From the IMG/VR virus record IMGVR_UViG_3300042540_001822, positions 124,001 through 188,000 of that record: a DNA stretch of 64,000 nt; one strand, given 5' to 3'. The notes beneath the pieces were generated by a model. The model made no database searches. It was not told the origin of the DNA and saw only the letters and a list, made by a program, of their open reading frames with translations. This document shows, in pieces, positions 6,159 to 63,914 of this stretch. Source of the stretch: a virus. Every line of letters begins with the position of its first letter. The stretch's first letter is position 1. The position numbers and the translations under genes were made by a program.

Positions 6159-6560
6159 TTAATATTTGTAATAATTACCATCGTTCTCCTTATCAGTTAA
6201 AAAATAAACTTTAAATCCTTTCAGTACTGACATTGCTCTGTTCATACAGGTTTCAATAGAATCAAATTCACCCCAATTTTCAACTCTTAAAGAAAGTTCT
6301 TCATACGTCCTTAAAGATATGGGAGATGTGGTAGTTAATTTATATTTTTTATTGATAGGTGTAATAGTAAAACTTAATGGAAATTTGGAGTTATTAATCT
6401 TTCCAATAATGTATTCCTTATTTTCCATATTTAAGTGGGTTAAATCTTGACTTTCAGATTCAAAAGATATTAGACCTACTGTCGAATACCCGTTTGATGT
6501 AAATGGATTTGATAAACCTCTACTTTCAATATAATGTTTTTTCCAATTAATTATCAACAT
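6159..6560 (-). CDS. Hypothetical protein, 133 aa
   Basis: No family recognised. Soluble, mixed alpha/beta, with a C-terminal segment ETCMNRAMSVLKGFKVYFLTDKEN. It sits between two cassette family members. ATG is at 6560, with the upstream gene overlapping by 14 bases. Confidence 0.6.
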   Translation of the reverse strand: MLIINWKKHYIESRGLSNPFTSNGYSTVGLISFESESQDLTHLNMENKEYIIGKINNSKFPLSFTITPINKKYKLTTTSPISLRTYEELSLRVENWGEFDSIETCMNRAMSVLKGFKVYFLTDKENDGNYYKY

Positions 6561-11711: not shown

Positions 11712-12149
11712 TTAGCAGTGAATTTTTTGAATCCTTTTAAGATGTCTACCCCCTTCAAAATCAGTTTTTAAAAAAATTTCTATTGATTTTATTGCCTCGA
11801 ACGTAGAAATAAATCTGGCAGGCAAACAAAGTAGATTTGCGTCGTTGTGTTTTCTTGAAAGAGCAGTAATATCAGAGTTCCAGCACAATGCTGCTCTAAC
11901 ATTTGGCCATTTGTTTGCAGTTATTGCAACCCCATTACCAGATCCGCAAATTAAAATTCCAATTCTGTCCGTGTCAATCAATCCTGCAACCCGGTGTGCA
12001 TAGTCTGGATAGTCTGTTGATTCTTGGTGGTAGGTACCTACGTCAATTACCTCATAATCATTTTCGCAAAACCAATCCAAGATTTTTGTTTTCAATTCAA
12101 ATCCTGCATGGTCTGAGCCTATTATGATGGTTTGGATATGATTTGACAT
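11712..12149 (-). CDS. rpiB: Ribose-5-phosphate isomerase B (RpiB-like)
   Basis: Interconverts ribose-5-phosphate and ribulose-5-phosphate, or a similar sugar phosphate. The motifs TIIIGSDHAGFELK, DVGTY, DYPDYAH and ILICGSGNGVAITANK identify the RpiB/LacAB family. ATG at 12149 (MSNHIQTIIIGSD) is chosen over a TTG at 12200 because RpiB proteins start just before this motif. In a phage it would feed host sugar phosphates toward nucleotide synthesis. Confidence 0.85.
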   Translation of the reverse strand: MSNHIQTIIIGSDHAGFELKTKILDWFCENDYEVIDVGTYHQESTDYPDYAHRVAGLIDTDRIGILICGSGNGVAITANKWPNVRAALCWNSDITALSRKHNDANLLCLPARFISTFEAIKSIEIFLKTDFEGGRHLKRIQKIHC

Positions 12150-12243
12150 GGAAGAAGAATAGATTTTTTTTCTTAATTTTCCATTCTTATATTTAAACAA
12201 TTACGAAATTGTTCCAGAAAAACCAATTTTTTTGAAAATAATT

Positions 12244-12969
12244 TTATCCAATATTAGAAAAAAAATTCGTCAGTAAATTTTTTCTTTCCTCTTCTGTCAT
12301 TTTTCGGGGAAGATCATAGTCTGATTTAGAATTTTCCTCAAGCCATTCATGTAAATCTTCGATAGTTTCACACAGTACATTTCCAGAAGAATCTGTCATA
12401 CGCAAATCTTTTCTCGTTCCCCATCCTTTTTCGTAACACCACCAATTGAAAGTTTCTAAACCTTCTTTTCCGTAGATGCTTCCGATTAACATGGAAACAA
12501 CACTTTGGAGTTCATCCTCAAAATTTCCCAAATCAATCCCATAATAACAAACTGCCCGGAATCTTTCTTGAGAGGATTTAAGTTTAAAAATAATTTCTTT
12601 AAAAACTTCGAAATTAATTTTATGTGAAAACATACTTTTTTTCATCTTTTGAATTAAAGGATGAAGATCCAAATGAGAAAATTCCTTATAAGGCAAGAAA
12701 ATTTTTTCCTTGTACTTCAAACCATGTTTCACAGCATTAACACCGTGAATAACAGTTGAATGATCCCTTCCAATTAAAGTTCCAATTTTACCGAAAGAAA
12801 ATATGTGACCAAATTTTTCTCTCAAAACGAACATGAGAAGGTGACGTGCTGCAACCAGGTGTTGGGTCTTTTTTTTGTTTTTAAGTTCGTCCAGACTGAA
12901 TCCAAAAACCCTATTTACCTCATTAACGTAGTGGTCAAAAATTAAAAGCTCTAACGTTGAATGGTACAT
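12244..12969 (-). CDS. DnaA domain IV-like DNA-binding protein, 241 aa
   Basis: Residues about 15-90 look like the C-terminal DNA-binding domain of bacterial DnaA: LVAARHLLMFVLRE, then SFGKIGTLIGRDHSTVIHG, the signature that contacts DnaA boxes. The AAA+ ATPase part is absent. A second half of about 130 residues (NFEVFKEIIFKLKSSQERFRAV...TFNWWCYEKGWG) has no recognised family. ATG at 12969 (MYHSTLELL) is preferred; the longer frame starts at a TTG. Inference: it may bind the phage or host origin, or compete with DnaA. Confidence 0.75.
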   Translation of the reverse strand: MYHSTLELLIFDHYVNEVNRVFGFSLDELKNKKKTQHLVAARHLLMFVLREKFGHIFSFGKIGTLIGRDHSTVIHGVNAVKHGLKYKEKIFLPYKEFSHLDLHPLIQKMKKSMFSHKINFEVFKEIIFKLKSSQERFRAVCYYGIDLGNFEDELQSVVSMLIGSIYGKEGLETFNWWCYEKGWGTRKDLRMTDSSGNVLCETIEDLHEWLEENSKSDYDLPRKMTEEERKNLLTNFFSNIG

Positions 12970-12989
12970 TTTAAAAAAGATATGGATTA

Positions 12990-13562
12990 CTATGGACGAA
13001 TGGCTAAACAATCAAAACCCCAGGGTCCCAGGCCGTAAGTAACTGAGAAACCTAGGGGTTCAAGAAATGAAATTAATTTTAGATTGTTAATGTGAACTGA
13101 CTCGTAATAAATTTGTTTGATGTCAAATTTTCTCCAGTCCAAACTGTAAAGAATTTGATCGTCGATTCCTTCGGCATCTAACATTAAATAATCTAAATGA
13201 TACAAATCAAATTCTTCTAAAATAGAAGAAAGAGTTCTTGCTGGAACGGAGATCTGAACCACTCTTTCTTTTTGGAGTAATCCGTGTCTTGGCTGGAAAA
13301 AATGATCTTGTGAAATAGATGATAAAGGATAATGTGGTCCATCATCCATGTGAAAAAAGAAAGAAGTTTTTCCCGTTGGTGTTGGATCTGGGACCACTGC
13401 ACAGTCCAAAATAACATGAGGAATTCCAAAATAAGCCTGTGAAATAATCCCGTGGTGAATTTTCAAAGGCTCTGCTAAAACAACTAATTCGGCATTATTT
13501 TCTTTAGCCAATTTAGGTAAATGGTCTTCAGCAGTAGAAGTTCCAACTTGTAAAATTTTCAT
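12990..13562 (-). CDS. FkbM-type methyltransferase-like protein
   Basis: Short Rossmann-type protein: MKILQVGTSTAEDHLPKLAK opens it, VVLAEPLKIHH follows the second strand, and YHLDYLMLDAEGIDDQIL matches the FkbM motif ID.LKIDxEGxExxIL. The S-adenosylmethionine-binding glycine motif is weak (QVGTSTAEDH), so activity is uncertain. Substrate unknown. Confidence 0.6.
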   Translation of the reverse strand: MKILQVGTSTAEDHLPKLAKENNAELVVLAEPLKIHHGIISQAYFGIPHVILDCAVVPDPTPTGKTSFFFHMDDGPHYPLSSISQDHFFQPRHGLLQKERVVQISVPARTLSSILEEFDLYHLDYLMLDAEGIDDQILYSLDWRKFDIKQIYYESVHINNLKLISFLEPLGFSVTYGLGPWGFDCLAIRP

Positions 13563-13877: not shown

Positions 13878-14390
13878 TTATTTCCAGTCAATTTTAGGAC
13901 AATACTTGTAATAGGTTGCTTTAACCATTTCAACAGTAATATTAGAACTTTTTTCTTCTTTCGGTAGATTTTTCCTCCCCCATTTTCTTTCTTTTCTTTC
14001 TTTTATTTTATCTTGGATGTATTCAATAAACCAAGCACAACCCCAAGTCAAACCTACCGCCCATACAAAAAAACCGTAAATAATTAAATTTTCTAAAATA
14101 GATCCTTTATGTGGTGTGTGCCAAAATAACATAATGGGACTGAGAGCTGCAATTAAAAGCAAAAGTATAAACCAAGAAATGAAACTTATCCAAATTCTAT
14201 TACCAAGTGATTCGTTATACGTATCTTTATCTATAATAACATAAGGAAGGGAAAAAATAAATAGTGGGATTGCGAATACATAAGCTATTACCAATTTCCA
14301 AAAGTATGGACATAAGTTGGTTGGAAGTTCACTTGTTCTGTAAAACCAACGGAAGAGTTTTGCTGAGATTGAGTTTTTGTTGAGTTTCAT
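13878..14390 (-). CDS. Multi-pass membrane protein, 170 aa
   Basis: About three hydrophobic segments (residues 30-55, 72-95, 105-125) in a 170-residue protein starting MKLNKNSISAKLFRWF, with a basic cytoplasmic tail (KERKERKWGRKNLPK). No family recognised. The start overlaps the upstream repeat gene's stop by 4 bases, as in the array. Confidence 0.65.
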   Translation of the reverse strand: MKLNKNSISAKLFRWFYRTSELPTNLCPYFWKLVIAYVFAIPLFIFSLPYVIIDKDTYNESLGNRIWISFISWFILLLLIAALSPIMLFWHTPHKGSILENLIIYGFFVWAVGLTWGCAWFIEYIQDKIKERKERKWGRKNLPKEEKSSNITVEMVKATYYKYCPKIDWK

Positions 14391-14761
14391 ACTTTTACAA
14401 GTTTAAATTTTTCACCACCAATTACAATTTCTTTACCTTCGCAAGATTTGGGTCGGTTGTCTTTGATTATACCTTTTGAATTCTCAAAGTAGATTAGATT
14501 ACCTTGAGAATCCCATTCCTGCTTTAACCAATACCCAGTTGAATCCTCAAAGTAGATTCTATTACCTTGAGAATCCCATTCCTTCTTTGCCCAATATTTC
14601 TTTGAATTCTCATAGTAGATTTCATTACCTTGAGAATCGTATTCACTCTTTACCCAACGTTTATTTGAATTCTCAAAGTAGATTTTTTTGCCATTCGTGT
14701 CTAGGATTACCAATGTACCATTGGTCTTGAAATCCCATTTAATTTGTTGTGCGATTGTCAT
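14387..14761 (-). CDS. Array I repeat protein 1 (124 aa, three 21-residue units)
   Basis: Member of a 12-gene family in two arrays. All members share the N-terminus MTIAQQIKWDFKTNG...IxDxNGKxIYFENS, internal 21-residue units of the form GYWxKxEWDSQGNxIYxENS, and a C-terminal block ending RPKSC...EKFKLVKV. This copy has about three units. The pattern is reminiscent of YD/RHS or MORN-type repeats. Function unknown. It overlaps the next copy by 4 bases. Confidence 0.8.
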   Translation of the reverse strand: MTIAQQIKWDFKTNGTLVILDTNGKKIYFENSNKRWVKSEYDSQGNEIYYENSKKYWAKKEWDSQGNRIYFEDSTGYWLKQEWDSQGNLIYFENSKGIIKDNRPKSCEGKEIVIGGEKFKLVKV

Positions 14762-15069
14762 ACTTTTACAAGTTTAAATTTTTCACCATCGATTTCTACT
14801 ACTTTATTTTCGCAAGATTTAGGTCGGTTGTCTATGATTTTACCATTTGAATTCTCATAGTAGATTCTATTACCTTGAGAATCCCATTCTCGTTTTGACC
14901 AATATCCATCTGAATCATGATAGTAGGTTTGGTTACCTTGAGAATCGTATTCACACTTTCCCCAATATCCATCTGAATTCTCATAGTAGATTCTATTACC
15001 ATTCTTGTCTTTAATTTCCAAGTAACCGTTGGTCTCAAAGTCCCAGTTGATTTGTTGTCCTATTGTCAT
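14758..15069 (-). CDS. Array I repeat protein 2 (103 aa, two units)
   Basis: Starts MTIGQQINWDFETNG, with units ending YYENSDGYWGKCEYDSQGNQ and YYHDSDGYWSKREWDSQGNR. It ends KVVEIDGEKFKLVKV. The ATGA overlaps with its neighbours indicate translational coupling through the array. Confidence 0.8.
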   Translation of the reverse strand: MTIGQQINWDFETNGYLEIKDKNGNRIYYENSDGYWGKCEYDSQGNQTYYHDSDGYWSKREWDSQGNRIYYENSNGKIIDNRPKSCENKVVEIDGEKFKLVKV

Positions 15070-15314
15070 ACTTTTACAAGTTTAAATTTTTCACCATCGA
15101 TTTCTACTACTTTGTTTTCACAAGACTTGGGTCGGTTGTCTCTGATTACGCCATATGAATTCTCATAGTAGATTTCTTTTCCTTGGGAATCCCACTCCTT
15201 CTTTGACCAATGTCCATTTGAATTCTCCCAGTAGATTTCTTTACCATTCTTGTCTTTAATTTCCAAGTTACCGTTGGCCTTGAAATCCCATTTGATTTGT
15301 TGTGCGATTGTCAT
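15066..15314 (-). CDS. Array I repeat protein 3 (82 aa, one unit)
   Basis: Short form with one full 21-residue unit between the conserved N-terminal and C-terminal blocks (HWSKKEWDSQGKEIYYENS). It shows that unit number varies between copies, which implies gain and loss of 63-bp repeats by recombination. Confidence 0.8.
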   Translation of the reverse strand: MTIAQQIKWDFKANGNLEIKDKNGKEIYWENSNGHWSKKEWDSQGKEIYYENSYGVIRDNRPKSCENKVVEIDGEKFKLVKV

Positions 15315-15622
15315 ACTTTTACAAGTTTAAATTTTTCACCATCAATTACGATTTCTTTATTTTCACAAGGCTTGGGTCGGTTGTCTTTGATTACACCACG
15401 TGAATTCTCAAGGTAGATTTCATTCCCTTCAGAATCCCATTCCTCCTTTACCCAATCTCCCTTTGAATCCCCAGAGTAGATACAATAGCCATTAGAATCG
15501 TATTCTTGTTTTGTCCAATACCCATATGAAGCCTCTCGGTAGATTTCTTTACCATTCTTGTCTTTGATTACCAAGGAACCATTGGTTTCAAAGTCCCATT
15601 TGATTTGTTGTGCTATTGTCAT
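15311..15622 (-). CDS. Array I repeat protein 4 (103 aa, two units)
   Basis: Divergent copy: the first unit is YGYWTKQEYDSNGYCIYSGDS, and the second carries WVKEEWDSEGNEIYLENS. The terminal blocks are preserved, so selection seems to act on the ends. Confidence 0.8.
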   Translation of the reverse strand: MTIAQQIKWDFETNGSLVIKDKNGKEIYREASYGYWTKQEYDSNGYCIYSGDSKGDWVKEEWDSEGNEIYLENSRGVIKDNRPKPCENKEIVIDGEKFKLVKV

Positions 15623-15996
15623 ACTTTTACAAGTTTAAATTTTTCACCACCAATTACAATTTCTTTGTTTTCACAGGATTTGGGTCGGTAGTCTACGATT
15701 GCACCATCTGAATCCTCGTGGTAGATTATATTACCTTTAGAATCGTATTCCCACTTTCTCCAATCTCCCTTTGAATTCTCCCAGTAGATTAATTTACCTT
15801 GAGAATCGTATTCACACTTTACCCAAAATCCATCTGAATTCTCATAGTAGATTAGATTGCCTTGAGAATCCATTTCATACTTTCTCCAAGTCCCATGTGA
15901 ATCCTCAAAGTAGATTAGGTTGTCATTCTTGTCTCGGATTATCAAGTCACCATTGGTCTTGAAATCCCATTTGATTTGTCGTGCTATTGTTTCCAT
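15619..15996 (-). CDS. Array I repeat protein 5 (125 aa, three units)
   Basis: First gene of array I in transcription order. ATG at 15996 gives METIARQIKWDF, matching the other members; the longer frame would use TTG. Three units (TWRKYEMDSQGNLIYYENS, FWVKCEYDSQGKLIYWENS, DWRKWEYDSKGNIIYHEDS) precede the conserved C-terminal block. Confidence 0.8.
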   Translation of the reverse strand: METIARQIKWDFKTNGDLIIRDKNDNLIYFEDSHGTWRKYEMDSQGNLIYYENSDGFWVKCEYDSQGKLIYWENSKGDWRKWEYDSKGNIIYHEDSDGAIVDYRPKSCENKEIVIGGEKFKLVKV

Positions 15997-16003
15997 AATT
16001 TTT

Positions 16004-16540
16004 TTAATCTTCAAACAGATTTTCTAAATATCGACACATTTCCCCGAGTTGATGAGCTTGTCCTTCAACAAATCCAAGACTAGTTAAGAAATGGTCATTT
16101 TCTTTTTTATACATGTCAAACATACGGCTACCAGTCATTTTAGAGTATTGAACATTAGCTATTCTATCACAAAGTTTAACAAACACAGCTTCTTTGAAGT
16201 TACGAATTCCCTCGTAGTATTTGTCATTTGCACGTTCCTTACGGTTCTTACCCTTTTCATTGGTACATGCATATATGATATCCGCTGTAAATAGTCCAAG
16301 ATTTTCCTTTACATCATTATAAGAAACTCTTGTGTCTTCGATTAAATCGTGACCGTATGCGGCTAGTAGAACCATATCTCTCCATGCTGTTTCTCCATCA
16401 TTTAAATTGGGGATTAATTCTATGAACTTCTCTGCCACCTTAGCAACCATTCGCAGATGGAACTCATAAGGCAAATATGCGTCGTACATATGGTTTGTAG
16501 ATTCGTGTTGCTTAAGAATCCATTTGATTTTTTCATTCAT
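16004..16540 (-). CDS. HD-domain (p)ppGpp hydrolase-like protein
   Basis: Resembles RelA/SpoT-type HD hydrolases that cleave the stringent-response alarmone ppGpp (MESH1-like size). Visible motifs are HLRMVAKVAEK, AAYGHDLIEDT (the HD pair) and VKLCDRIANVQYSK, a typical later segment of this group. It lacks a synthetase domain. The protein is 178 aa. Inference: it could dampen the host starvation response during infection. It lies directly upstream of array I in the same transcription unit. Confidence 0.75.
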   Translation of the reverse strand: MNEKIKWILKQHESTNHMYDAYLPYEFHLRMVAKVAEKFIELIPNLNDGETAWRDMVLLAAYGHDLIEDTRVSYNDVKENLGLFTADIIYACTNEKGKNRKERANDKYYEGIRNFKEAVFVKLCDRIANVQYSKMTGSRMFDMYKKENDHFLTSLGFVEGQAHQLGEMCRYLENLFED

Positions 16541-16593: not shown

Positions 16594-18036
16594 TTAACCC
16601 TCTGATTTTTTGCTACTAGCCAAACCGTTCAACATTGATAAAATGTTTTTACCCTCCTCAGTTTGTTTTAGTCCTTCGAGTAAACCGTTAATTTGTGAAG
16701 CTCCTTTGGACGTGAAAAGGTCTGAAAGCTTTCCAATGCCGGATTGTACGTCTCCACTGTTAATGAGAAGCTTGAGATCAGCTGCGGATAAGGCTTTTGC
16801 CATAGATTCGTACTGTGCAACCCCGACCACTTGGCTCACCTCCACCTCTTTTACCCGAATCAAGTACTCTTGATAAGGTTTGTTTTCCCCGATCTCTTTG
16901 GCCAAAGTGGTCTGTGCAGAAACGCTGGCCAATTCCATCGCCTTTCTTGATTCAGCCTCTGATATACCTTTGGCCTTAATAACATCTGCCTCTGCAGAAC
17001 CAACAGTTTTGGTAGCCTCTGCCTCTTTACGTTTTGCTTCCAGTGCAGCTGATGCTTCTGTTTCAATACGGTATTTTTCGGCCATAGCACGAATTTCTGT
17101 CTTCTGTTTTTCTTGTTCTGCAGTGATGATCTCACGTTCTCTGTCGATCTCGGCTTGCTTGACTTGATTTACCTTTATAACTTCCATCTCTTGCTCGGCA
17201 GTCATTCTTTGTGATTTTGCGATCTCCGAGATAGATTCTTGTTCTGCAATTCCTGTGCGTTTCTTTGACTCTGCTTTGGCTATTCCGATGGCCTGTTGAG
17301 ATTGAGCCTGTGCCTCCCCTGCGATCTTTTCTGTTTCTGCAGTGGTGACGTCAATTTCTTTTCTGGCCTCTAGCTCTGCTTGTTTTGCCATCTTGTTGTT
17401 TTTCGCAACTTCAGTTCTTGATTCCATGTCTATGGCTGACATTCTTTTTGCCATGATTTGGTGGATGACCTGGGATCCGTCTGCGTCTCTTACGTCCATC
17501 AATTCAATGCTTTTGATAGCTTCTACCCCCCAGTTTTGCAAATCATTGTTGACCGCCTCTGTGAACTGCTTACCGAAAATGGATCTTTCCTCCATGATTT
17601 CTTCCAATTTTGATTTGGCCAAAATCGAACGGACTGCTCCTTGAACTACATTTTCTAACTGTCCTTTAAGTTCTTCAAATGATTCAACCTTTTGTGCTGC
17701 AACGTTTGTGTCAGATATATGAAAGAAAGCCTTTACGTCAACCACGAAAGGAACACGATCTTTATCATAGGCCTCATATCGTTTTAAATCGATGTCGAAG
17801 TTGCTAACTGGCAAAACACGTTTTGATACACCGAAGAAAGGAAGCCAACTTGGCCATTCATAGTATACGTTGGATTGTTTATTGGTTCCATATGAGACCG
17901 TCTGTTTTCCACGTTGAACAATGTGTACCACGTTGGTCGGCACGATTCGGCGAAGTGAAACAACGTAAATCAGAATGGAAATCCCGATGATGGTTGGTAA
18001 CGATAGAGCTACCATGGAGAGAATTGATAGAAACAT
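16594..18036 (-). CDS. Flotillin-like SPFH/band 7 membrane protein
   Basis: An N-terminal transmembrane segment (residues about 1-25) is followed by an SPFH domain and a long Ala/Glu/Lys-rich coiled coil with many KAESK and AEAxATK-type repeats typical of flotillins. Length 480 aa fits the family. Flotillins form membrane-bound oligomers. A phage-encoded copy may organise the host membrane or a phage complex; the exact role is unknown. Confidence 0.85.
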   Translation of the reverse strand: MFLSILSMVALSLPTIIGISILIYVVSLRRIVPTNVVHIVQRGKQTVSYGTNKQSNVYYEWPSWLPFFGVSKRVLPVSNFDIDLKRYEAYDKDRVPFVVDVKAFFHISDTNVAAQKVESFEELKGQLENVVQGAVRSILAKSKLEEIMEERSIFGKQFTEAVNNDLQNWGVEAIKSIELMDVRDADGSQVIHQIMAKRMSAIDMESRTEVAKNNKMAKQAELEARKEIDVTTAETEKIAGEAQAQSQQAIGIAKAESKKRTGIAEQESISEIAKSQRMTAEQEMEVIKVNQVKQAEIDREREIITAEQEKQKTEIRAMAEKYRIETEASAALEAKRKEAEATKTVGSAEADVIKAKGISEAESRKAMELASVSAQTTLAKEIGENKPYQEYLIRVKEVEVSQVVGVAQYESMAKALSAADLKLLINSGDVQSGIGKLSDLFTSKGASQINGLLEGLKQTEEGKNILSMLNGLASSKKSEG

Positions 18037-24485: not shown

Positions 24486-25117
24486 TGTTTAGTTTGTTTG
24501 ATTAAAGTTCTATTCAATTTTCCATAGTTTGATTCACCGTCAAAAGCTCTACCAATACGGTACAAATGTTTAGGTGATAATCCAAAGTAACCATCACAAT
24601 GATAAAATTTATCCATTTGTTCTGGAAGCATATCAGAGTCATCATCTAAAATTGCATAATCCTCAACTTCAGGATTTTTATCTAACCATTGCTGTATTTC
24701 TTCTCCCCTCATACCAAACCCCCTTCCAGTAATCCCAACAAAAGTTCCCTCATTAAATCCAAAATGTACCAAAGCATCTTCCCACCACTCTGGAATTAAT
24801 TCTTTTTTCTTACCAAAATGATGTCTCCAAACAGATGAAACACAAATTTTAGTTCCAGTTTCATTACAAAAATTAGAAAGCCATTTCCATTTTTGTGGAC
24901 AAGTTTCTCCAATCAACCTTTTAAGCTGAAATTCGTAGGTGTAGTAAATATCGGGTGTTTTGTGATTTGCATAACTCACAGGTTTTGATTTGATACCTAA
25001 AAACTTTCTGATTAAGTAGTAGTAAGTCCTGGGTTTCAACCACCTTTTTTTGTGTCGGTTCTCGTAAAAAACTTCAGAGTTCATAACCCCATCAATATCT
25101 AAAAATATAACTTTCAT
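24482..25117 (-). CDS. HAD phosphatase of the RNA-repair (SAK) type
   Basis: Motif I KVIFLDIDGVMNSEV, motif II VSSVWRHHF and the late acidic motif YAILDDDSDM. The layout (FLDIDGVxN...) fits the HAD group linked to Swiss Army Knife RNA-repair proteins. 211 aa, cytoplasmic. It overlaps the start of array II by 4 bases in the same direction. A role in healing 5' or 3' RNA ends is inferred from context. Confidence 0.65.
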   Translation of the reverse strand: MKVIFLDIDGVMNSEVFYENRHKKRWLKPRTYYYLIRKFLGIKSKPVSYANHKTPDIYYTYEFQLKRLIGETCPQKWKWLSNFCNETGTKICVSSVWRHHFGKKKELIPEWWEDALVHFGFNEGTFVGITGRGFGMRGEEIQQWLDKNPEVEDYAILDDDSDMLPEQMDKFYHCDGYFGLSPKHLYRIGRAFDGESNYGKLNRTLIKQTKQ

Positions 25118-25425
25118 ACTTTTACAAGTTTAAAATTTTCGCCATCGATTAGGATTTCTTTGTTTTCGCAAGACTTAGGTCGGTTGTCTATGATTAGACC
25201 ACCTGAATCCTCAAAGTAGATTTTATTACCTTGAGAATCGTATTCTCGTTTAGCCCAAACTCCATCTGAATCCTCAACGTAGATTAGATTGCCTTGAGAA
25301 TCATATTCACACTTTTCCCAATATCCATTTAAATGCTCATAATAGATTTCATTACCATTCTTGTCTCGGATTACCAAGAGACCATTGGTCTTGAAGTTCC
25401 ATTTAATTTTTTGTGCGATTGTCAT
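25114..25425 (-). CDS. Array II repeat protein 1 (103 aa, two units)
   Basis: N-terminus MTIAQKIKWNFKTNG, units GYWEKCEYDSQGNLIYVEDS and VWAKREYDSQGNKIYFEDS, and a C-terminal block with RPKSCENKEIL. It is coupled to the HAD gene downstream (4-base overlap). Confidence 0.8.
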   Translation of the reverse strand: MTIAQKIKWNFKTNGLLVIRDKNGNEIYYEHLNGYWEKCEYDSQGNLIYVEDSDGVWAKREYDSQGNKIYFEDSGGLIIDNRPKSCENKEILIDGENFKLVKV

Positions 25426-25874
25426 ACTTTCACGAGTTTAAATTTTTCACCACCAATTAGGATTTCTTTGTTTTCACAAGGCTTGGGTCGGTAGTCTATG
25501 ATTTCACCATATGAATTCTCATAGTAGATTACATTACCATTCTTGTCTTTGATTTCCTTTAAGTTACCGTTGGCCTTGAAGTTCCATTTGACACTGGCCT
25601 TGAAGTTCCATTTGGCACAGGGTTTAGGTCGATCGTCTCTGATTTGGCCAACTGAATTTTCAAAGTAGATTACATTGCCTTGAGAATCCCATTCTCGTTT
25701 TGACCAATACCCATTTGAATCCTCCAAGTAGATTTGATTACCTTGAGAATCCCGTTCATACTTTTCCCAAAACCTATTTGAATCCTCAAAGTAGATTAGA
25801 TTATCATTCTTGTCTTGGATGTTCAAGCATCCATTGGTCTCAAAATCCCATTTGATTTGTTGTGCTATTGTCAT
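25422..25874 (-). CDS. Array II repeat protein 2 (150 aa, internally duplicated)
   Basis: Longest copy. After two units and one RPKPC block, the N-terminal consensus reappears twice in shortened form (KWNFKASVKWNFKANGNLKE), so this gene looks like a fusion of two array members. This is direct evidence of unequal recombination within the array. Confidence 0.8.
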   Translation of the reverse strand: MTIAQQIKWDFETNGCLNIQDKNDNLIYFEDSNRFWEKYERDSQGNQIYLEDSNGYWSKREWDSQGNVIYFENSVGQIRDDRPKPCAKWNFKASVKWNFKANGNLKEIKDKNGNVIYYENSYGEIIDYRPKPCENKEILIGGEKFKLVKV

Positions 25875-26185
25875 ACTTTCACGAGTTTAAATTTTTCACC
25901 ATCGATTTCTACTACTTTGTTTTCACAGGGTTTGGGTCGTTTGTCTTTGATTACACCTTTTGAATTCTCATAGTAGATTTCTTTACCTTGAGAATCCCAT
26001 TCTTGTTTTTCCCAATATCCATCTGAATTCTCATAGTAGATTAATTTTTCTTCAGAATTGTATTCATGCCTGTCCCAACCTCCCGTATTTTCAAAGTAGA
26101 TTAGATTACCATTCTTGTCTCGGATTTCCAAGACACCGTTGGTCTTGAAATCCCATTTGATTTGTTGTGCTATTGTCTGTATCAT
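25871..26185 (-). CDS. Array II repeat protein 3 (104 aa, two units)
   Basis: Starts MIQTIAQQIKWDF and has a degenerate first unit (WDRHEYNSEEKLIYYENS) followed by YWEKQEWDSQGKEIYYENS and the C-terminal block ending EKFKLVKV. Confidence 0.8.
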   Translation of the reverse strand: MIQTIAQQIKWDFKTNGVLEIRDKNGNLIYFENTGGWDRHEYNSEEKLIYYENSDGYWEKQEWDSQGKEIYYENSKGVIKDKRPKPCENKVVEIDGEKFKLVKV

Positions 26186-26523
26186 ACTTTTACAAGTTTA
26201 TATTTTCCACCAGGTGCAAACATAGAAAAAAGACCTAAGCCTTTAAATTCTACTACTTTACCTTCACAGGGCTTGGGTCGGCTGTCTATGATTTCACCAT
26301 ATGAATTCTCATAGTAGATTACTTTTCCTTCAGAATCCAGTTCCCACTTTCTCCAAGTCCCATGTGAATACTCCAAGTAGATCAATTTACCTTGAGAATC
26401 CCATTCATACTTTTCCCAAACTCCATCTGAATTCTCCAGGTAGATTGGTTTACCATTCTTGTCTCGGATTACCAAGAGACCATTGGTCTTGAAATCCCAT
26501 TTGATTTGCTGTGCTATCGTCAT
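26182..26523 (-). CDS. Array II repeat protein 4 (113 aa, altered C-terminus)
   Basis: Two units (VWEKYEWDSQGKLIYLEYS, TWRKWELDSEGKVIYYENS). The C-terminal block carries an extra 12 or so residues (FKGLGLFSMFAPGG) before the usual YKLVKV, unlike all other copies. Confidence 0.8.
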   Translation of the reverse strand: MTIAQQIKWDFKTNGLLVIRDKNGKPIYLENSDGVWEKYEWDSQGKLIYLEYSHGTWRKWELDSEGKVIYYENSYGEIIDSRPKPCEGKVVEFKGLGLFSMFAPGGKYKLVKV

Positions 26524-26828
26524 ACTTTCACGAGTTTAAATTTTTCACCACCAAATTCTACTATCTTACCTTCACAAGACTTAGGTCGTTTGTCTTTAAT
26601 TAGACCATCTGAATTCTCATAATAGATTTCATTGCCTTCAGAATCGTATTCATGCTTTCTCCAATATCCCATTGAATTCTCACAGTAGATTTCTTTGCCT
26701 TTAGAATTCCGTTCCCACTTTGCCCAATATCCATCTAAATCCTCAAAGTAGATTATTTTACCATTCTTGTCTAGGATATCCAAGTCACCATTAGTGAAGT
26801 CCCATTTGATTTGTTGTGCTATTGTCAT
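26520..26828 (-). CDS. Array II repeat protein 5 (102 aa, two units)
   Basis: Starts MTIAQQIKWDFTNGD with one residue less than the family norm in the N-terminal block. Units YWAKWERNSKGKEIYCENS and YWRKHEYDSEGNEIYYENS. Confidence 0.8.
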   Translation of the reverse strand: MTIAQQIKWDFTNGDLDILDKNGKIIYFEDLDGYWAKWERNSKGKEIYCENSMGYWRKHEYDSEGNEIYYENSDGLIKDKRPKSCEGKIVEFGGEKFKLVKV

Positions 26829-27076
26829 ACTTTCACTAGTTTATATTTTTCACCTTCAAATTCTACTATCTTACCTTCACAGGGCTTGGGTCGTTTGTCT
26901 ATGATTCTACCAAATGAATTCTCCCTGTAGATTAGATTGCCTTGAGAATCGTATTCGCTCTTTTCCCAAACCCTATTTGAATCCTCCCAGTAGATTAGTT
27001 TACCATTATTGTCTTTGATTCTCAATTCATCATTGGTCCTGAAATCCCATTTGATTTGTTGTGCTACTGTTTTCAT
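26825..27076 (-). CDS. Array II repeat protein 6 (83 aa, one unit)
   Basis: Short form: MKTVAQQIKWDFRTND, one unit (VWEKSEYDSQGNLIYRENS) and the C-terminal block. It begins with MKT instead of MTI, the same kind of variation seen in the first gene of array I. Confidence 0.8.
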   Translation of the reverse strand: MKTVAQQIKWDFRTNDELRIKDNNGKLIYWEDSNRVWEKSEYDSQGNLIYRENSFGRIIDKRPKPCEGKIVEFEGEKYKLVKV

Positions 27077-27384
27077 ACTTTTACAAGTTTAAATTTTTCA
27101 CCACCGATTAGGATTTCTTTGTTTTCACAAGATTTGGGTCGTTTGTCTGCGATTACACCATTTGAATCCTCACAGTAGATTACATTACCTTGAGAATCGA
27201 ATTCATACTTTGCCCAAAGTCCTTTTGAATCCTCCATGTAGATTAGATTGTCTTGAGAATCGTATTCACGCTTTGCCCAAAATCCACTTGAAGTCTCAAA
27301 GTAGATTAGGGAATCATTCTTGTCTCGGATTTGCAAGACGCCATTGGTCTTGAAATCCCACTTGATTTGTTGTGCTATTGTCAT
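27073..27384 (-). CDS. Array II repeat protein 7 (103 aa, two units)
   Basis: First gene of array II in transcription order: MTIAQQIKWDFKTNG, units FWAKREYDSQDNLIYMEDS and LWAKYEFDSQGNVIYCEDS, C-terminal block RPKSCENKEILI. Confidence 0.8.
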   Translation of the reverse strand: MTIAQQIKWDFKTNGVLQIRDKNDSLIYFETSSGFWAKREYDSQDNLIYMEDSKGLWAKYEFDSQGNVIYCEDSNGVIADKRPKSCENKEILIGGEKFKLVKV

Positions 27385-51392: not shown

Positions 51393-51842
51393 AAAGGCGT
51401 AGTTCTGCGATTTTATCCCTCTGTCTGGGAATTTTTTTTGTTTGAAATATCGTTGAACCTCATTTGGCTCAACTCGTAATTTGCGTTGACCTGAGCCCAG
51501 AGTTTATCACATCTGGAATCCAATTGTTTCTGTAATGATTCAAATAGTTCTTTTTCAGCTCTTATTCTCGAGTCTTCTCGTTTGCCGATTTCATCTGTAA
51601 CTTCATCGATTCTACTGTGGATGTAAGAATCATCAGAATGTAGGTTTCCCCTTGTAATTTCAATCTCTTTCCAAACCGATTCAATGCGGTCAGAGATTTT
51701 GTTTGTGATTTTTCGGTCTAAATCCGAATTCATCTTAAACACGCCCACCACAGTGACCAAGACCACCACGGTAAGCGCACCTAAAAGAAAATAAAGTGTT
51801 TCCATAATTTTTAAATTTTTTTTGAAGCAGAACTACGCCTTT
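51393..51842. repeat. 16-bp perfect inverted repeat flanking the 51413-51805 gene
   Basis: AAAGGCGTAGTTCTGC (51393-51408) and its exact reverse complement GCAGAACTACGCCTTT (51827-51842) lie about 420 bases apart, on the two sides of a single gene. The arms may delimit a mobile or invertible cassette or form a long-range RNA stem. Confidence 0.7.
51413..51805 (-). CDS. Membrane-anchored coiled-coil protein, 130 aa
   Basis: A hydrophobic segment (FLLGALTVVVLVTVVGVFK) at the N-terminus is followed by heptad-like helices (ESVWKEIEITRGNL, SLQKQLDSRCDKLWAQV). Single-pass membrane protein with an extended cytoplasmic or periplasmic coil. It lies between the arms of a 16-bp inverted repeat. Confidence 0.65.
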   Translation of the reverse strand: METLYFLLGALTVVVLVTVVGVFKMNSDLDRKITNKISDRIESVWKEIEITRGNLHSDDSYIHSRIDEVTDEIGKREDSRIRAEKELFESLQKQLDSRCDKLWAQVNANYELSQMRFNDISNKKNSQTEG

Positions 51843-51882: not shown

Positions 51883-51906
51883 AAAGTTTGTCCGAAGACA
51901 AACTTT
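51883..51906 (-). terminator. Terminator of the tmRNA
   Basis: Read on the minus strand, AAAGTTTGTC-TTCG-GACAAACTTT forms a 10-bp stem with a stable UUCG tetraloop, followed by a run of T. It starts only a few bases after the tmRNA 3' end. Confidence 0.85.
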
Positions 51907-51910
51907 GTTG

Positions 51911-52347
51911 TGGAGCTGGGCGGATTCGAACCGCCGTCCTGTTAGGTAGATCTTGGAAACTCATTCACAGGCTTAGTCTATTTTTATAAACAGACAAATC
52001 TTTACCTCCTAGTTTTTGACTGTGATAGGAGATAATCCACAGCGTCTTCCCTTACAGCGATCTGAAGGGTATTGGGCCGGAGCCCGCAGGGTTACTGAGG
52101 GTCGACGAATTTTGTGGTACTATTAACCCTTTTTCCCACAATTGTGACTTTCTGTTCCTGGGCGTCACCTCCCGGTGTTTAGGCTGCCAAGGCAACTTCA
52201 ACCGACTCCACTGAACCTAGTCCAGCAAGAGCAAAAAATGGATTTTCGCCATTTGAAAAGTACTTAGGATATTTAGGTGCTTCCAAAGCTAGCACCGCCT
52301 GCATCATGTCAAAGAACTTGTTCCTCCAGTCGATTCCTGTCAGCCCC
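51911..52347 (-). ncRNA. ssrA: tmRNA (transfer-messenger RNA)
   Basis: The 5' end GGGGCTG and 3' end CAGCTCC(A) form the acceptor stem. A T arm GGCGG-TTCGAAT-CCGCC and a 5' stretch GGAATCGACTGGAGG match tmRNA. About 437 nt, a little longer than usual. The tag frame lies at 52250-52179: resume codon GGC, tag start GENPFFALA, tag end VEVALAA followed by TAA (23 residues). No CCA is encoded. Releases ribosomes stalled on broken mRNA and tags the protein for proteolysis. Confidence 0.9.
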
Positions 52348-52357
52348 GAAGTTGTGT

Positions 52358-52367
52358 TTATATATGT
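52358..52367 (-). promoter_or_regulatory. ATATATAA motif upstream of the tmRNA
   Basis: ACATATATAA on the minus strand, about 10 bases upstream of the mature tmRNA 5' end. This is consistent with the late-promoter-like motif seen before other genes. Confidence 0.4.
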
Positions 52368-52382
52368 ACGAAAAAAAAAGTT

Positions 52383-52775
52383 TCATAATTTGACCTCAAA
52401 TCTTTTCGCCATAGCATCTAACTTGTCAGAAGGAACTCCGTGAACATTTTCACCCATGTGTCGGTTTTCTACGATCGCGGTGGAAACCAGATAACCGAAT
52501 TTTTCGGCCATTTGAAAATAAGGTTCCATTTCCCATTCCTGTGTAAATGTATTTGATACGATAATTAAAGGGTGGTCCAAAAACATCCAATCTTTAACCA
52601 TTGTTTGGCACCACTCGTGAGCCTGCTTTAATTTGTCACCTTGGAATTTATATTCTCCATCTACCATGAAAAATTGGTCAGCTTCAACGTGAAAAACCCC
52701 ATAACCTCCTAACCTTTTGGCCAAAGTTGATTTACCAGATCCGGGCAAACCCCGGAGTAAAAGAAGTGTATTCAT
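52383..52775 (-). CDS. P-loop (AAA-type) nucleotide kinase
   Basis: LLLRGLPGSGKSTLAKRLGG is the Walker A motif. 130 aa; SNTFTQEWEMEPYFQMAEK and RHMGENVHGVPSDKL resemble polynucleotide or zeta-type kinases. It sits between tmRNA and clpP, so a role in RNA end processing is possible but unproven. Confidence 0.7.
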   Translation of the reverse strand: MNTLLLLRGLPGSGKSTLAKRLGGYGVFHVEADQFFMVDGEYKFQGDKLKQAHEWCQTMVKDWMFLDHPLIIVSNTFTQEWEMEPYFQMAEKFGYLVSTAIVENRHMGENVHGVPSDKLDAMAKRFEVKL

Positions 52776-52788
52776 GATTTAAATTTGT

Positions 52789-53463
52789 TTAATTGGTTTT
52801 CTTTGTGATTACCCCATCGATGATTCCATAGGCCTTGGCTTCCTCGGCATCGAGCCAAAAATCACGGGTTGCGTCCTCCTGAACCTTTGCCGGATCCTTA
52901 CCACAAAAATCACCAAGTAGTTCAAATAGGATTTTATTCACCTTTTCCCATTCTTGAAAGTCAATTTTTGCGTCCTGGATGTTTCCTTCGAAGCCTCCAG
53001 AAGATTGGTGCAACATCACCTTAGAGAAGCGAAGAGAAAATCTTTTTCCCTTGGTCCCAGCACCTAATAGCACAGATCCCATAGAAGCTGCCATGCCCGT
53101 GTTGATTGTGGAGATGTCAGATTTAATGTACTGCATGACATCCACCATTGAAAGTCCAGATTTAACCGATCCCCCTGGTGAATCGATGTGCATTGTGATG
53201 TCCCTTTCATCAACGGAATCTAAAAACATCAGCTGTGCCTGAACTACTGTCGACATGGAATCACGGACCGGACCTGCCACCCATAAAATTCTGTCCATCA
53301 TGAGTCTTGAAAAAATGTCCAATTGTGTCACCCGAAGTTCTCTTTCTTCTAGAATGTAGGGGGTTAGTGAGCTTTGAACTTGTTTTTCATAGTAGTCCAA
53401 AGTGGAGGAACTAATTCCTTGAGATAGGGAGAATTTTTGAAATTCCGAAAAAAGTTTTGACAT
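52789..53463 (-). CDS. clpP: ClpP serine protease
   Basis: Proteolytic subunit of the Clp protease. Catalytic triad S127 (in NTGMAASMGS), H152 (in VMLHQSSGG) and D201 (in DATRDFWLD). Ser environment and motifs MHIDSPGGSVKSG are typical. 224 aa, no ClpX/ClpA here, so it would rely on the host ATPase. It is one gene away from the tmRNA and may degrade tagged proteins. Confidence 0.9.
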   Translation of the reverse strand: MSKLFSEFQKFSLSQGISSSTLDYYEKQVQSSLTPYILEERELRVTQLDIFSRLMMDRILWVAGPVRDSMSTVVQAQLMFLDSVDERDITMHIDSPGGSVKSGLSMVDVMQYIKSDISTINTGMAASMGSVLLGAGTKGKRFSLRFSKVMLHQSSGGFEGNIQDAKIDFQEWEKVNKILFELLGDFCGKDPAKVQEDATRDFWLDAEEAKAYGIIDGVITKKTN

Positions 53464-53662: not shown

Positions 53663-53974
53663 TTAAATCAAAGAGGTGTTTACTGTTCTATTTGCAACCC
53701 CGGCTATTCCTGGAAAAGAAGAAAAAACGTTGGTCATATCTTTAATCGTCGTGTCCCAAGGAGAATGGCTTTCGTTAAATCTGACCATAGGATAAAATAC
53801 TGGTGATTCGTAATTTCCACCCCGGATTGGCATTTTGCACCTGACTGGCGGGTGACTAACCGCCTGTAAATAAAAAACTGCAGATCCATCTGGAGTAAAT
53901 CGAATTTCGGACACCTCAATGTCACTTCTCTCTTTTCCAGTGAGAAAATTTTTTAACTCGTCTCTGAAGTTCAT
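53663..53974 (-). CDS. Small hypothetical protein, 103 aa
   Basis: Beta-rich (DGSAVFYLQAVSHPPVRCKM, GGNYESPVFYPMVRF). No family recognised; begins MNFRDELKNFLTG. Coupled to the thioredoxin gene by a 4-base overlap. Confidence 0.55.
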   Translation of the reverse strand: MNFRDELKNFLTGKERSDIEVSEIRFTPDGSAVFYLQAVSHPPVRCKMPIRGGNYESPVFYPMVRFNESHSPWDTTIKDMTNVFSSFPGIAGVANRTVNTSLI

Positions 53975-54255
53975 AATTCTGAAGTGTGTTTTTGAATGAG
54001 ATCCTGATAAAAACCTTCGGGTTTCAAACCTTTAACGTTTTCTAAAACTGAATTTTCTTTCATAAATAAAACCGTAGGCAAAGATCTAATTCCAAATTCC
54101 GCTGTTCTTTCCTTATTTTCATCAACGTTAATTTTCACAATTTCAACGTTTGGATTTTTTGATTTTAAATTTTCTAAAATTGGATTAAGCATACGGCAGG
54201 GTCCACACCATTCGGCATAAAAATCTAAAATTGTAAGTGGAGTAGGGTTTGACAT
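53971..54255 (-). CDS. Thioredoxin
   Basis: DFYAEWCGPCRML contains the WCGPC active site (residues about 16-20), and RSLPTVLFMKE follows. 94 aa. Reduces disulfides, for example for ribonucleotide reductase or for virion assembly. Confidence 0.85.
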   Translation of the reverse strand: MSNPTPLTILDFYAEWCGPCRMLNPILENLKSKNPNVEIVKINVDENKERTAEFGIRSLPTVLFMKENSVLENVKGLKPEGFYQDLIQKHTSEL

Positions 54256-55308: not shown

Positions 55309-56781
55309 TTAAATTGATTCGAATTTTATACCTCCATGAGGCATTCCTTTTGTTTTAAGTGGTCTGTAACCTTTCATTTCGTCTGTAACTACGAATGCCT
55401 TATGAGGATTAACCATTACCCCCATTCTTTTCATTAAACCTCTATTTGCCAAAAAAGGAGTGCTTTTTTGAATTCTGTCAGTAGGTGCAACCTTAACATC
55501 GGAAATTTTAACTCCATTGAGCATCAAATCCAATGATATAATAGGTCTTTTTTCTTTTTCCCTTCCAATTTCAGTGTTTGTGTAACCTATAATTTCATCT
55601 GCGAAAGTATTTTCACCTATTTTCCAATATAGAACTCCATTTTTTTCCTCCAATTCATCAGCGTGAATCGAAGAGGCTGAAGATCCATTACCAGTGTCAA
55701 ATTTTGCCACCATTTTACCAATTCTGGGAATATCTAAAGTTTCTAAATAGCCAACCTCCATTTTGCTATAGCTCCAATTATTCTTGTCTATAACATAGTC
55801 AATAACATCTCCAACAATAGGTCTTCCAATTGCCTGAGAAATACCTTCTGTTCCAGGAGAAGAATTGACCTCCAAAATGTAGGGTTTACCCGATTCAGCA
55901 TCAATCATGATGTCTACTCCACACCAGTGGCTTCCGACTGCATTAGCGGCTTCACAAGCGAGAGCTGCTGTTTCTTCGTCGATATCATAGGATGAAACCT
56001 GCCCTCCCAAAGAGTAATTAGTTCTAAAGTCTTTTTCAACAGCTTCTCTTTTCATGGAACCGAGAATGGTGTAATTTCCTTTTTTTGAAATAAGTGGATC
56101 GAATCTTTTAACGATTACCTGAATTCTAAGATCAAAATTAGAATTAATCTTTTCTTGTATCAAAATTTCCTTTTCCGGGTCTAGCTTTGCTATGGTCTGA
56201 TAAACCGACTTTAAAGAAGCATAAGAATCAACAATCGAAACTCCAATTCCCTGGGTCCCAGACAGTAATTTCATAACGACAGGAAATTTACCTCCAATCT
56301 GCTCCAAAGCGGAATCTAGATTGTCTTCCCCGTTGACTAATGCGTATCTAGGAACGGGTAAACCCTCACCCTCCAAAATCCGGGAGGTAAGAAATTTGCT
56401 TTCACAAATCTCAATTGATTCTAAAGAGTTAACGCAAAAATATCTAGATGCCTCCAAATCTCTCATGATTTGTTTGGTGTAGGAGTTGGTAATAACTCCT
56501 CTCCGAGGAATAATTGCAGTTTTATCTGGTTTAATTAGAATTTCTTTGCCATCTTTTTTTCCTTCACGAACCATGTGTCCGTTGTAAATTTTTTCCAACG
56601 TTATGTTGTTTATGTCCACCACGTTGCAGACGATTCCCCGATTTTCACACTCGGCCATAAAAGATTTAGAGGTAGGGCTGGGTTTGGCGGTACCGGACAG
56701 GATAAGAATTTCTACCCCATCTGAGGACTCGGATTCATTCAAGAAGGTTGAAAAATTAACAACAGAAGGAGCAAAGGACAT
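55309..56781 (-). CDS. RimK-type ATP-grasp enzyme fused to retropepsin-like domain
   Basis: The N-terminal part (residues about 1-300) has RimK motifs PVPRYALVNGEDN, KFPVVMKLLSGTQGIGVSI, ILIQEKIN and GVDIMIDAESGKPYILEVNSSPG. The C-terminal part has PRIGKMVAKFDTGNGSSASS, the aspartyl-type DTG motif of the RimB-like retropepsin domain. The fusion is unusual. ATG at 56781 (MSFAPSVVNFSTFL) fits, with a TGATATATAA motif upstream; a longer start at 56814 would read through it. It may ligate residues to a protein or act as a protease. Confidence 0.8.
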   Translation of the reverse strand: MSFAPSVVNFSTFLNESESSDGVEILILSGTAKPSPTSKSFMAECENRGIVCNVVDINNITLEKIYNGHMVREGKKDGKEILIKPDKTAIIPRRGVITNSYTKQIMRDLEASRYFCVNSLESIEICESKFLTSRILEGEGLPVPRYALVNGEDNLDSALEQIGGKFPVVMKLLSGTQGIGVSIVDSYASLKSVYQTIAKLDPEKEILIQEKINSNFDLRIQVIVKRFDPLISKKGNYTILGSMKREAVEKDFRTNYSLGGQVSSYDIDEETAALACEAANAVGSHWCGVDIMIDAESGKPYILEVNSSPGTEGISQAIGRPIVGDVIDYVIDKNNWSYSKMEVGYLETLDIPRIGKMVAKFDTGNGSSASSIHADELEEKNGVLYWKIGENTFADEIIGYTNTEIGREKEKRPIISLDLMLNGVKISDVKVAPTDRIQKSTPFLANRGLMKRMGVMVNPHKAFVVTDEMKGYRPLKTKGMPHGGIKFESI

Positions 56782-56803
56782 GAAAGTGGGAAGAAATTTT
56801 TCC

Positions 56804-56813
56804 TTATATATCA
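56804..56813 (-). promoter_or_regulatory. TGATATATAA motif, candidate late promoter
   Basis: Located 22 bases upstream of the RimK-like gene start at 56781. Closely related to the GGATATATAA motif. Confidence 0.4.
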
Positions 56814-57440
56814 CTTTTTTTCAACAAACTCTGTAAAATAATGTTGATCTGTCTCGAAATTTGTTTTATTTTCTACCGAATAAACATTCATATCAATTTT
56901 GTAACCAGGATTTTTTTCTATCCTCTTAAATGTCCACGCATTATCCATCCAAATTATTCTATTATTTGGATAGATGAAATAATTTCCATTGTCCATCTTG
57001 AAAACGTGTCCACATTTGTGTTCTGGTGTTTCTGAAAAATTGGTATCTAATAAGGATCTATTTTCAAAAGACCAATCAAGAGTAAAAAGGTAAATCCCCT
57101 GTCTTTTTAAACCCGAAATTGAAATTAAATCTGCTCTTAATCCGCTCATTCTTGCCCTCACCTGAACATCGATGTACGAGCTAAAGCAATCCCAATAAAT
57201 ATGCTCGCTTAAAGGCAATAATTCAGCATCCTTTTTCCAACAAAAAGCGTTAATGGGTCTTCTTGTCCAATTGACCCCATTTTCCAAAAAAGCTTCAAAT
57301 AATGGAACTCTTTTTTCAATCGAAGCAACCGAATGAACATCTGCTAAGGTAAAATCACCGTGTCCTTTTTCGTGGTTAAATAAAAATTCATTTCTGATGA
57401 AACAGGTCAGAGTTGGGATGTTGTGATTTAGATAGGGCAT
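56811..57440 (-). CDS. Conserved phage protein, 209 aa
   Basis: Contains TCFIRNEFLFNHEKGHGDFTLADVHS, WDCFSSYIDVQVRARMSGLR and a C-terminal aromatic part (HVFKMDNGNYFIYPNNRIIW). It may be a large-phage protein of unknown function that occurs next to RimK-like genes. Its start is MPYLNHNIPTLTC. Confidence 0.6.
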   Translation of the reverse strand: MPYLNHNIPTLTCFIRNEFLFNHEKGHGDFTLADVHSVASIEKRVPLFEAFLENGVNWTRRPINAFCWKKDAELLPLSEHIYWDCFSSYIDVQVRARMSGLRADLISISGLKRQGIYLFTLDWSFENRSLLDTNFSETPEHKCGHVFKMDNGNYFIYPNNRIIWMDNAWTFKRIEKNPGYKIDMNVYSVENKTNFETDQHYFTEFVEKK

Positions 57441-62526: not shown

Positions 62527-62880
62527 TTAGATTTCTCCATCTGTATATATCTTTCCTGGACTATTTTTTATTAGATAAACAATTAGGGTATTAATAATGA
62601 CACTTGCCCCGCTAATCCAAAATCCAGAAAAAAGTATTGTTAGAATTTGGTAAAAATACCCATCATATTCCAATAAAAACATGAAAGGATTAACCATCTG
62701 ATTGGCGGAAATCAGCAAACCAAATAAGATTCCCACCCAAAAGCCAGAACACTGCATACAGGTCAATAATTTTCCCAAAGTTGGGTACATTACCTGCAAA
62801 TAAATTCTGAGAGGATCAAATATGGAACCATTGACTAAAATACTGGTGATGGCCCAACCTAAAAAACTAAATTCAATCAT
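62527..62880 (-). CDS. DUF1360-like membrane protein, 117 aa
   Basis: The motif LLTCMQCSGFWVGILFGLL (CxxCxGFWxG) is typical of the DUF1360 membrane protein family seen in phages. Several hydrophobic segments. Overlaps the DnaJ gene stop by 4 bases. Function unknown. Confidence 0.7.
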   Translation of the reverse strand: MIEFSFLGWAITSILVNGSIFDPLRIYLQVMYPTLGKLLTCMQCSGFWVGILFGLLISANQMVNPFMFLLEYDGYFYQILTILFSGFWISGASVIINTLIVYLIKNSPGKIYTDGEI

Positions 62881-63914
62881 GACGGAAAGATTTTCTTGTA
62901 AGTAGACAAGAAATCCCTTTGTGTTTCATTTAATTCTTTAGGAATTCTTAATTTTAATCTGATTAATATGTCTCCTCTGAAATCAGAGTTAAATTCAGGA
63001 ATTCCCTTTCCTGCTAACCGGAGAATCTTTCCTGGATCTGATCCAGGAGGTATTGAAATTTTATATTCTCCGTCTGGAATTTCTAAATTTGGAATTTTAA
63101 CCTCTGCACCCATACAGGCATCATAAAAATCAACATCCATATCACAATACAAATTCAGGGAATCACGTTTGTAAAAATGATGTTGAATATCCTCTACAGA
63201 CACAATTAAGTCTCCAGGATCACATGGGGATTTTTCAAAATCTCCACCTCCGTCGATCTTGAAATTTATACCCGTAACTGAACCTTTAGGAACCGTAATG
63301 TCTACCTGTGTTGTCTGTCTTATGGTTCCAGAACCAGAACAAGAATGGCAAGGTGTTTTGGCAGTTTCTCCAAATCCACCACAGGAAAAACACGTTCCAT
63401 CCACAGCCATTTGACCAAACCCTGTATTTACAATTTTTCTATTTACTCCTGTTCCATTACACTGAACACAAAAAACGACCTCAGCATTATGTGCTCCTGT
63501 CCCTTTGCACGGTTCACAAGGAAATCTTTTGAATAGTGTTACCTTTTTCTGTGCTCCCTTTAGTACATCCGCTAGATTAATTTGCAATCTGGCGTTTATA
63601 TTTTTCCCCTTTCGAATTTGTGTTTTATGTTGATGCCAGGAGTTTGCTGAATTGAAATTATTAAAAAAATCTGCAAATGGACTTCCCCAGTTTGCTTGAT
63701 TAGGTCCGCTCCACTTCGGAGAATCATATGCTTTCTTTTTTGAAGGATCCCCTAAAGTTTCGTAGGCTTCGTTTATTTGTTTAAATTTTGCCTCTGCAGA
63801 GGTGTCTCCTGGATTTTTATCTGGATGATATTTTAAGGCCAATCTCCTGTAACTTTTTTTTATTGCATCAGAAGACGCTTCTCTTCCAACTTCTAAAATT
63901 TGATAAAAGTCCAT
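62877..63914 (-). CDS. dnaJ: DnaJ chaperone, full length
   Basis: J domain with YHPDKNPG (HPD near residue 30), a G/F-rich linker, four CxxCxGxG zinc motifs (CEPCKGTG, CVQCNGTG, CFSCGGFG, CHSCSGSG) and C-terminal domains. 345 aa, normal length. Works with Hsp70 to fold or disassemble proteins; likely assists phage assembly or replication. Confidence 0.9.
   Translation of the reverse strand: MDFYQILEVGREASSDAIKKSYRRLALKYHPDKNPGDTSAEAKFKQINEAYETLGDPSKKKAYDSPKWSGPNQANWGSPFADFFNNFNSANSWHQHKTQIRKGKNINARLQINLADVLKGAQKKVTLFKRFPCEPCKGTGAHNAEVVFCVQCNGTGVNRKIVNTGFGQMAVDGTCFSCGGFGETAKTPCHSCSGSGTIRQTTQVDITVPKGSVTGINFKIDGGGDFEKSPCDPGDLIVSVEDIQHHFYKRDSLNLYCDMDVDFYDACMGAEVKIPNLEIPDGEYKISIPPGSDPGKILRLAGKGIPEFNSDFRGDILIRLKLRIPKELNETQRDFLSTYKKIFPS

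Follow-up and report, generated by a model that had tools for sequence, protein, structure and literature searches.

A phage tmRNA gene with an extended tag lying close to a clpP gene in a large-phage genome

The tmRNA and clpP locus

The window, that is, the whole stretch of 64,000 nucleotides that was analyzed, corresponds to positions 124001-188000 of the 219,475-bp virus record IMGVR_UViG_3300042540_001822, which may be incomplete. The virus is a large phage of Bacteroidota-type bacteria, this host group being presumed. The locus is a minus-strand series comprising thioredoxin, ORF103, ClpP, a P-loop kinase, the tmRNA, and an intrinsic terminator (Table 1). A sequence-only reading of this DNA had placed the tmRNA, kinase, and ClpP within 1.6 kb on the same strand, and the ARAGORN, Rfam, PF13671, and PF00574 results confirm it; 441 nt separate the tmRNA and clpP genes. 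The thioredoxin described there as nearby is also present, while the DnaJ is real but "nearby" is generous for it, because it lies 9.4 kb from clpP.

Table 1. Features of the locus, in window coordinates.
Feature	Position	Strand	Evidence and remarks
ORF130, neighbor downstream of tmRNA	51413..51805	-	also in unfoldase-bearing sister phages, 86% identity
Intrinsic terminator directly 3' of tmRNA	51883..51906	-	10-bp stem, UUCG loop, U-run
tmRNA (ssrA) gene	51910..52347	-	ARAGORN and Rfam RF00023; acceptor stem G3-U70; CCA not encoded
Tag reading frame	52179..52250	-	resume codon GGC, 23 codons GENPFFALAGLGSVESVEVALAA, stop TAA
Pseudoknot PK1	52262..52296	-	11 nt 5' of resume codon; covariation-supported
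P-loop (polynucleotide-kinase-like) ATPase	52383..52775	-	PF13671, 47 bits; phrog_2071
ClpP peptidase	52789..53463	-	PF00574, 198 bits; triad S127/H152/D201; docking strand DITMHIDSPGG
ORF103, no assigned function	53663..53974	-	conserved neighbor upstream of clpP
Thioredoxin	53971..54255	-	PF00085; conserved upstream of clpP in clade (synteny)
DnaJ	62877..63914	-	J domain, zinc-finger and C-terminal domains

The tmRNA matches Rfam RF00023 over its full length (67.2 bits, E 5.4e-24) and has a tRNA-like domain with a T arm and the G3-U70 pair of the acceptor stem, the alanine determinant. This pair is present in 25 of 25 phage tmRNAs examined, while the remaining acceptor pairs vary in a compensatory manner. 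Upstream of the tag lies PK1, both helices of which covary across 17 phage tmRNAs, with 96.6% of cells paired and two-sided changes in 7 of 12 pairs; not one of 500 shuffles did equally well, and every slid register was far worse. Minimum free energy folding was uninformative (z -1.25), as expected because tmRNA is a pseudoknotted RNA. Judged from these features, the phage tmRNA is intact.

The tag was defined from the pseudoknot, the homologues, and the codon pattern. The GGC codon that follows PK1 opens a frame that runs to a stop and encodes 23 residues, GENPFFALAGLGSVESVEVALAA, the last of which are small (ALAA); its GEN start would fit derivation from a Bacteroidota tmRNA. ARAGORN proposed a different tag for the window, VPQNSSTLSNPAGSGPIPFRSL (VPQNSS...), which we rejected as wrong because it lies far downstream of PK1 and has no counterpart in relatives; for a close relative, the same program gives GENPFYILAGLAPVEEAEVALAA. 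ARAGORN also missed several other phage tmRNA genes, and in a Flavobacteriaceae MAG (L162) it apparently misreads a bacterial tag, giving VNRKFKPRFS for GEGNYALAA.

The alignment shows an intact Ser-His-Asp triad in the window ClpP, its best PDB matches are all ClpP (168 bits), and it has an N-terminal extension similar to the one in Bacteroidota ClpP. By these comparisons, it is a true, full cellular-type ClpP. The unfoldase-docking strand reads DITMHID in the window against DIQIYIN in Bacteroidota and DI-T/I-MH in the aligned phage members, so that the aromatic docking residues, at what we take to be the positions of E. coli ClpP Tyr60 and Tyr62, are replaced by Thr and His. The His is found in all aligned members of the phage family and the Thr in all but one (L064). 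The docking of the phage ClpP may therefore differ from that of the host enzyme; as read from the alignment, the change weakens the notion that it docks on any ClpX, not its identity as a ClpP. Two contigs deposited as Prochlorococcus and Magasanikbacteria (L134 and L143) also carry a phage-type clpP (65-66%) and are probably phage contigs within single-cell or metagenome assemblies.

Several other genes were recorded on the minus strand of the window. They include a RimK-like ATP-grasp ligase of 501 residues (55309-56814), upstream of clpP and conserved in the clade; a glutamine-synthetase-like protein (PF00120, PF03951; 34308-35369), here phage-encoded; two genes (11712-12200 and 12244-13011) for an RpiB-type ribose isomerase and a product bearing the DnaA C-terminal DNA-binding domain; and a Band 7/flotillin-like protein of 480 residues (16594-18036). 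Two arrays on this strand (14387-16014 and 25114-27384) consist of tandem paralogues that start with MTIAQQIKWDF and have repeated IYxENS-like units; the members of a second paralogue family in the window (2450-6948) start with MNNEKMNQMIDEAYENY.

Extended tags in related phages

Our comparison covers 49 ClpP-bearing records, 25 of which have a tmRNA (23 above the Rfam cut-off and two slightly below it); the tag set consists of the tags of these tmRNA-bearing records plus further copies found by DNA pattern. It holds 24 distinct long tags of 21-31 residues, which come from nearly all the tmRNA-bearing relatives and the window. The types are GENPF[FY]xLAGLx...EVAL-type (23-24 residues), G[KNE]x[NS]VW[DE]xIN[AS]FGxP... 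(the NVW type, 25 residues, 11 of the 24 distinct tags), GNT[NT]FWSLVN...TEELLAA (24 residues), GETFAxL...EEVYAA or EEVTVA (21 residues), and ANVYNSED...ELAVAA (31 residues). A short tag, ADNAELAMAA, was found in one phage only. Common to the long tags are an aromatic first half and a C-terminal end of small, Clp-type residues, mostly A-x-A-A; the first half (VW, IN, and FG; PFF or PFY and LAGL) and the C-terminus are conserved to roughly the same degree. Substitutions are most frequent at third codon positions (93 vs 46 and 50; 293 vs 204 and 135, counted over non-independent pairs). From these patterns, the long tags appear as a phage-specific family under coding constraint.

In the Bacteroidota genomes with the nearest cellular ClpPs, the tags are nine residues long (for example, GENNYAMAA). 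Both kinds occur in one Bacteroidetes MAG, where the host-type tag (read as EANYAMAA by ARAGORN and as GEANYAMAA by eye) and the phage-type GNTTFWSLVNETVNTPVTEELLAA lie on different contigs. This family of tags, set against the nine-residue tags of the presumed hosts, raises a testable question, namely, what reads the extra half. Matches to tmRNA were also obtained in Lak phages and in LR756508, with tags that are not confidently placeable; in the latter, a published 484-kb huge phage (L181, LR756508.1 92434-92880), the tmRNA frame could yield a tag of about 36 residues, and the tag given by ARAGORN (GRRKPLSW) is doubtful.

Neighborhoods and partner genes in relatives

Of the 25 records with both genes, the window is the sole one to have tmRNA and clpP less than 5 kb apart; treating contigs as linear, the gap is at least 5.4 kb in the other 24, so the gaps in these records reject conserved adjacency as a general rule. 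In the clade of the window, defined by GENPF tags, the gap is 0.4-16 kb, and the tmRNA is downstream on the same strand in all six phages having clpP; outside this clade, it is at least 20 kb, again with contigs treated as linear. The closest tmRNA relatives (G049-G051) share the genes downstream of the tmRNA with the window (ORF130, ORF310, and a cupin), and clpP was not found in their records. Its place is taken by a divergent gene for an 821-residue unfoldase with two AAA domains and an IGF loop, which adjoins the tmRNA.

Other neighbors of clpP recur. Across 45 distinct loci, a ClpC-like unfoldase lies on the same strand within 2.5 kb upstream of clpP in 11 (18 nt away in L021), and SmpB lies within 0.9 kb downstream on the same strand in seven, at 18-45 nt in six of them. 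A P-loop kinase is often a close neighbor and is more usual there than the tmRNA. One locus (L025, 6765-8213) has a 482-residue DUF2828/DUF7788 protein directly after clpP, between it and the tmRNA; the motif PVVDVSGSMS suggests a vWA domain, and the protein may be a Ro-like one acting in RNA quality.

The 219-kb record of the window gave no match to SmpB, AAA_2 unfoldase, or ClpS and thus has neither a tmRNA and SmpB pair nor a ClpP and AAA+ unfoldase pair; the host must therefore provide these partners, unless the record is incomplete. SmpB is present in 13 of the 24 relatives bearing both tmRNA and ClpP and tracks the tmRNA, being found in 13 of 25 tmRNA-positive versus 1 of 23 tmRNA-negative ClpP records (Fisher p 3e-4, in a test that ignores phage kinship and with several of the tmRNA-negative records being short fragments). 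The AAA_2 unfoldase was found in 9 of 24 tmRNA-positive and 14 of 23 tmRNA-negative ClpP relatives searched, and the ClpS adaptor in none of 21 records searched. The unfoldases of five relatives have two AAA domains, a UVR match in three of the five, and, by eye, an (I/V/M)GF loop; Clp_N is absent among the Pfam matches listed for them.

Interpretation and known systems

The idea that the phage brings its own rescue-and-degrade unit holds at the level of the group, in which tmRNA, SmpB, ClpC-like unfoldase, and ClpP recur, the tag has a Clp-type end (ALAA), and ClpC-ClpP, ClpP-SmpB, and unfoldase-tmRNA neighbors occur in related phages; it does not hold as a compact unit, the 1.6-kb adjacency being limited to the window and its record carrying two of the four genes, tmRNA and ClpP. 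The most economical reading is that a proteostasis set is carried partly or wholly and re-clustered variously, the 441-nt spacing being one local arrangement. With somewhat better than even confidence, we favor a loosely clustered phage set for trans-translation and Clp proteolysis with a phage-specific extended tag, in which tmRNA and clpP would act jointly. Against the set reading stand the adjacency that no relative shares, the closest tmRNA relatives without clpP, the partners missing from the window record, and the further presence of long tags in 250-340-kb records that gave no phage unfoldase match. The recurrent neighbors suggest that large phages unite ribosome rescue and proteolysis.

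In the proposed mechanism, the phage would make its own tmRNA, which, having kept G3-U70, would be charged by the host alanyl-tRNA synthetase and would enter stalled ribosomes with the host SmpB (or, in many relatives, possibly a phage SmpB). The 23-residue phage-type tag would be added in place of the nine-residue one of the host, and since it ends in ALAA, the tagged fragments are proposed to go to Clp proteolysis. The adjoining phage ClpP would supply or alter the peptidase, docking on a host unfoldase here and, in relatives, on one that is phage-encoded and ClpC-like; the genes would have been assembled in differing orders from one relative to another. Alanylation, tagging, and degradation of the tagged protein are what we infer from knowledge of the family.

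Two alternatives concern the nature of the genes themselves. The Rfam score of the window tmRNA, below the 118-150 bits of bacterial tmRNA genes, would suit a host-derived copy undergoing decay, yet the compensatory changes in PK1 and the acceptor stem already contradict decay, the substitutions in the tag are of the coding type, and a tmRNA recurs in 25 of the 49 ClpP-bearing records, which makes this explanation extremely improbable. It is also very unlikely that the ClpP is the protease of phage head maturation, a role that such enzymes have in many siphophages, the lambdoid ones included. Its PHROGs matches are mostly to head-maturation ClpP-like proteases, but it is of the full cellular type with proteostasis genes as recurrent neighbors, and a prohead role is doubtful because relatives have a prohead protease of the T4 type (Peptidase S77) as a distinct gene, detected in 9 of 14 relatives searched, including the ClpP-bearing G007, G016, G017, G019, G023, G024, G037, and G047; the search for S77 gave no match in G000 itself.

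The alternative of greatest weight, which we regard as possible but not probable, is that the two genes are chance neighbors with independent functions, the tmRNA relying on the SmpB and ClpXP of the host and the phage ClpP being employed elsewhere, for example, in removing host or defense proteins together with an unfoldase of phage or host origin. The gaps between the two genes, the lack of a tmRNA match in 24 of the 49 ClpP records (of which many are fragments), the sister phages with tmRNA and no clpP, and the kinase as the usual close neighbor of clpP all agree with it; the clpP-smpB and unfoldase-tmRNA neighbors, the enrichment of SmpB in tmRNA-positive records, and the constant clpP-to-tmRNA order on one strand throughout the clade of the window speak for the set instead. 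As for the tag, the conservation of its N-terminal half across the 24 distinct tags would be expected if it were not, or not only, a degron, with the aromatic half targeting an adaptor, membrane, or aggregate, or just lengthening the tail for unfoldase engagement; we find this improbable, since the small-residue C-terminus is kept and points to Clp recognition. A further proposal, rather unlikely and advanced tentatively, is a private degron system, in which the aromatic half of a two-part tag would be read by a phage-specific partner (a ClpP/ClpC complex or an adaptor), diverting stalled-ribosome proteins from the host Clp route to a phage-controlled one.

The sequence-only reading had called phage tmRNAs uncommon, which is too strong for huge phages, given that tmRNA and SmpB genes were reported in phages larger than 200 kb (Al-Shayeb et al. 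2020, PMC7162821). The tmRNAs in that study were assigned with ARAGORN; its passages on tmRNA are silent on tag length, and a term search of its main text gave no mention of Clp. Ten phage ssrA genes were listed in 2014, nine of them from mycobacteriophages (PMC4131195), and those of the Bxz1-type mycobacteriophages and Bacillus phage G are phage-borne, like that of the window. ClpP, ClpA, ClpX, and ClpS of jumbo phages have been described and read as serving host-directed proteolysis or assembly (PMC7824862); the Clp components are phage-encoded, as here, whereas tmRNA and trans-translation are absent from the main text of that work. Both tmRNA and ClpX have been reported from a single jumbo phage (PMC11242549). 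In the open-access literature searched, subscription papers being outside its scope, we found no report of a phage tmRNA linked to ClpP, of tmRNA or SmpB clustering with clp genes, or of long phage tags, and no discussion of phage tmRNA tags.

Compared with the bacterial tmRNA-SmpB system and its ClpXP/ClpAP proteases, the window shares the tRNA-like domain with G3-U70, PK1, the resume codon 11 nt after it, the ALAA end, and ClpP; it differs in a tag of 23 rather than nine residues (GENNYAMAA in the presumed host group) and in that the set is phage-borne, with SmpB and the unfoldase not in the record. The ssrA tags of Mycoplasma and Mesoplasma are long and are read by Lon. They are an earlier case of long ssrA tags whose protease partner has changed, although their sequence differs and a Clp-type C-terminus is retained in the phage tags.
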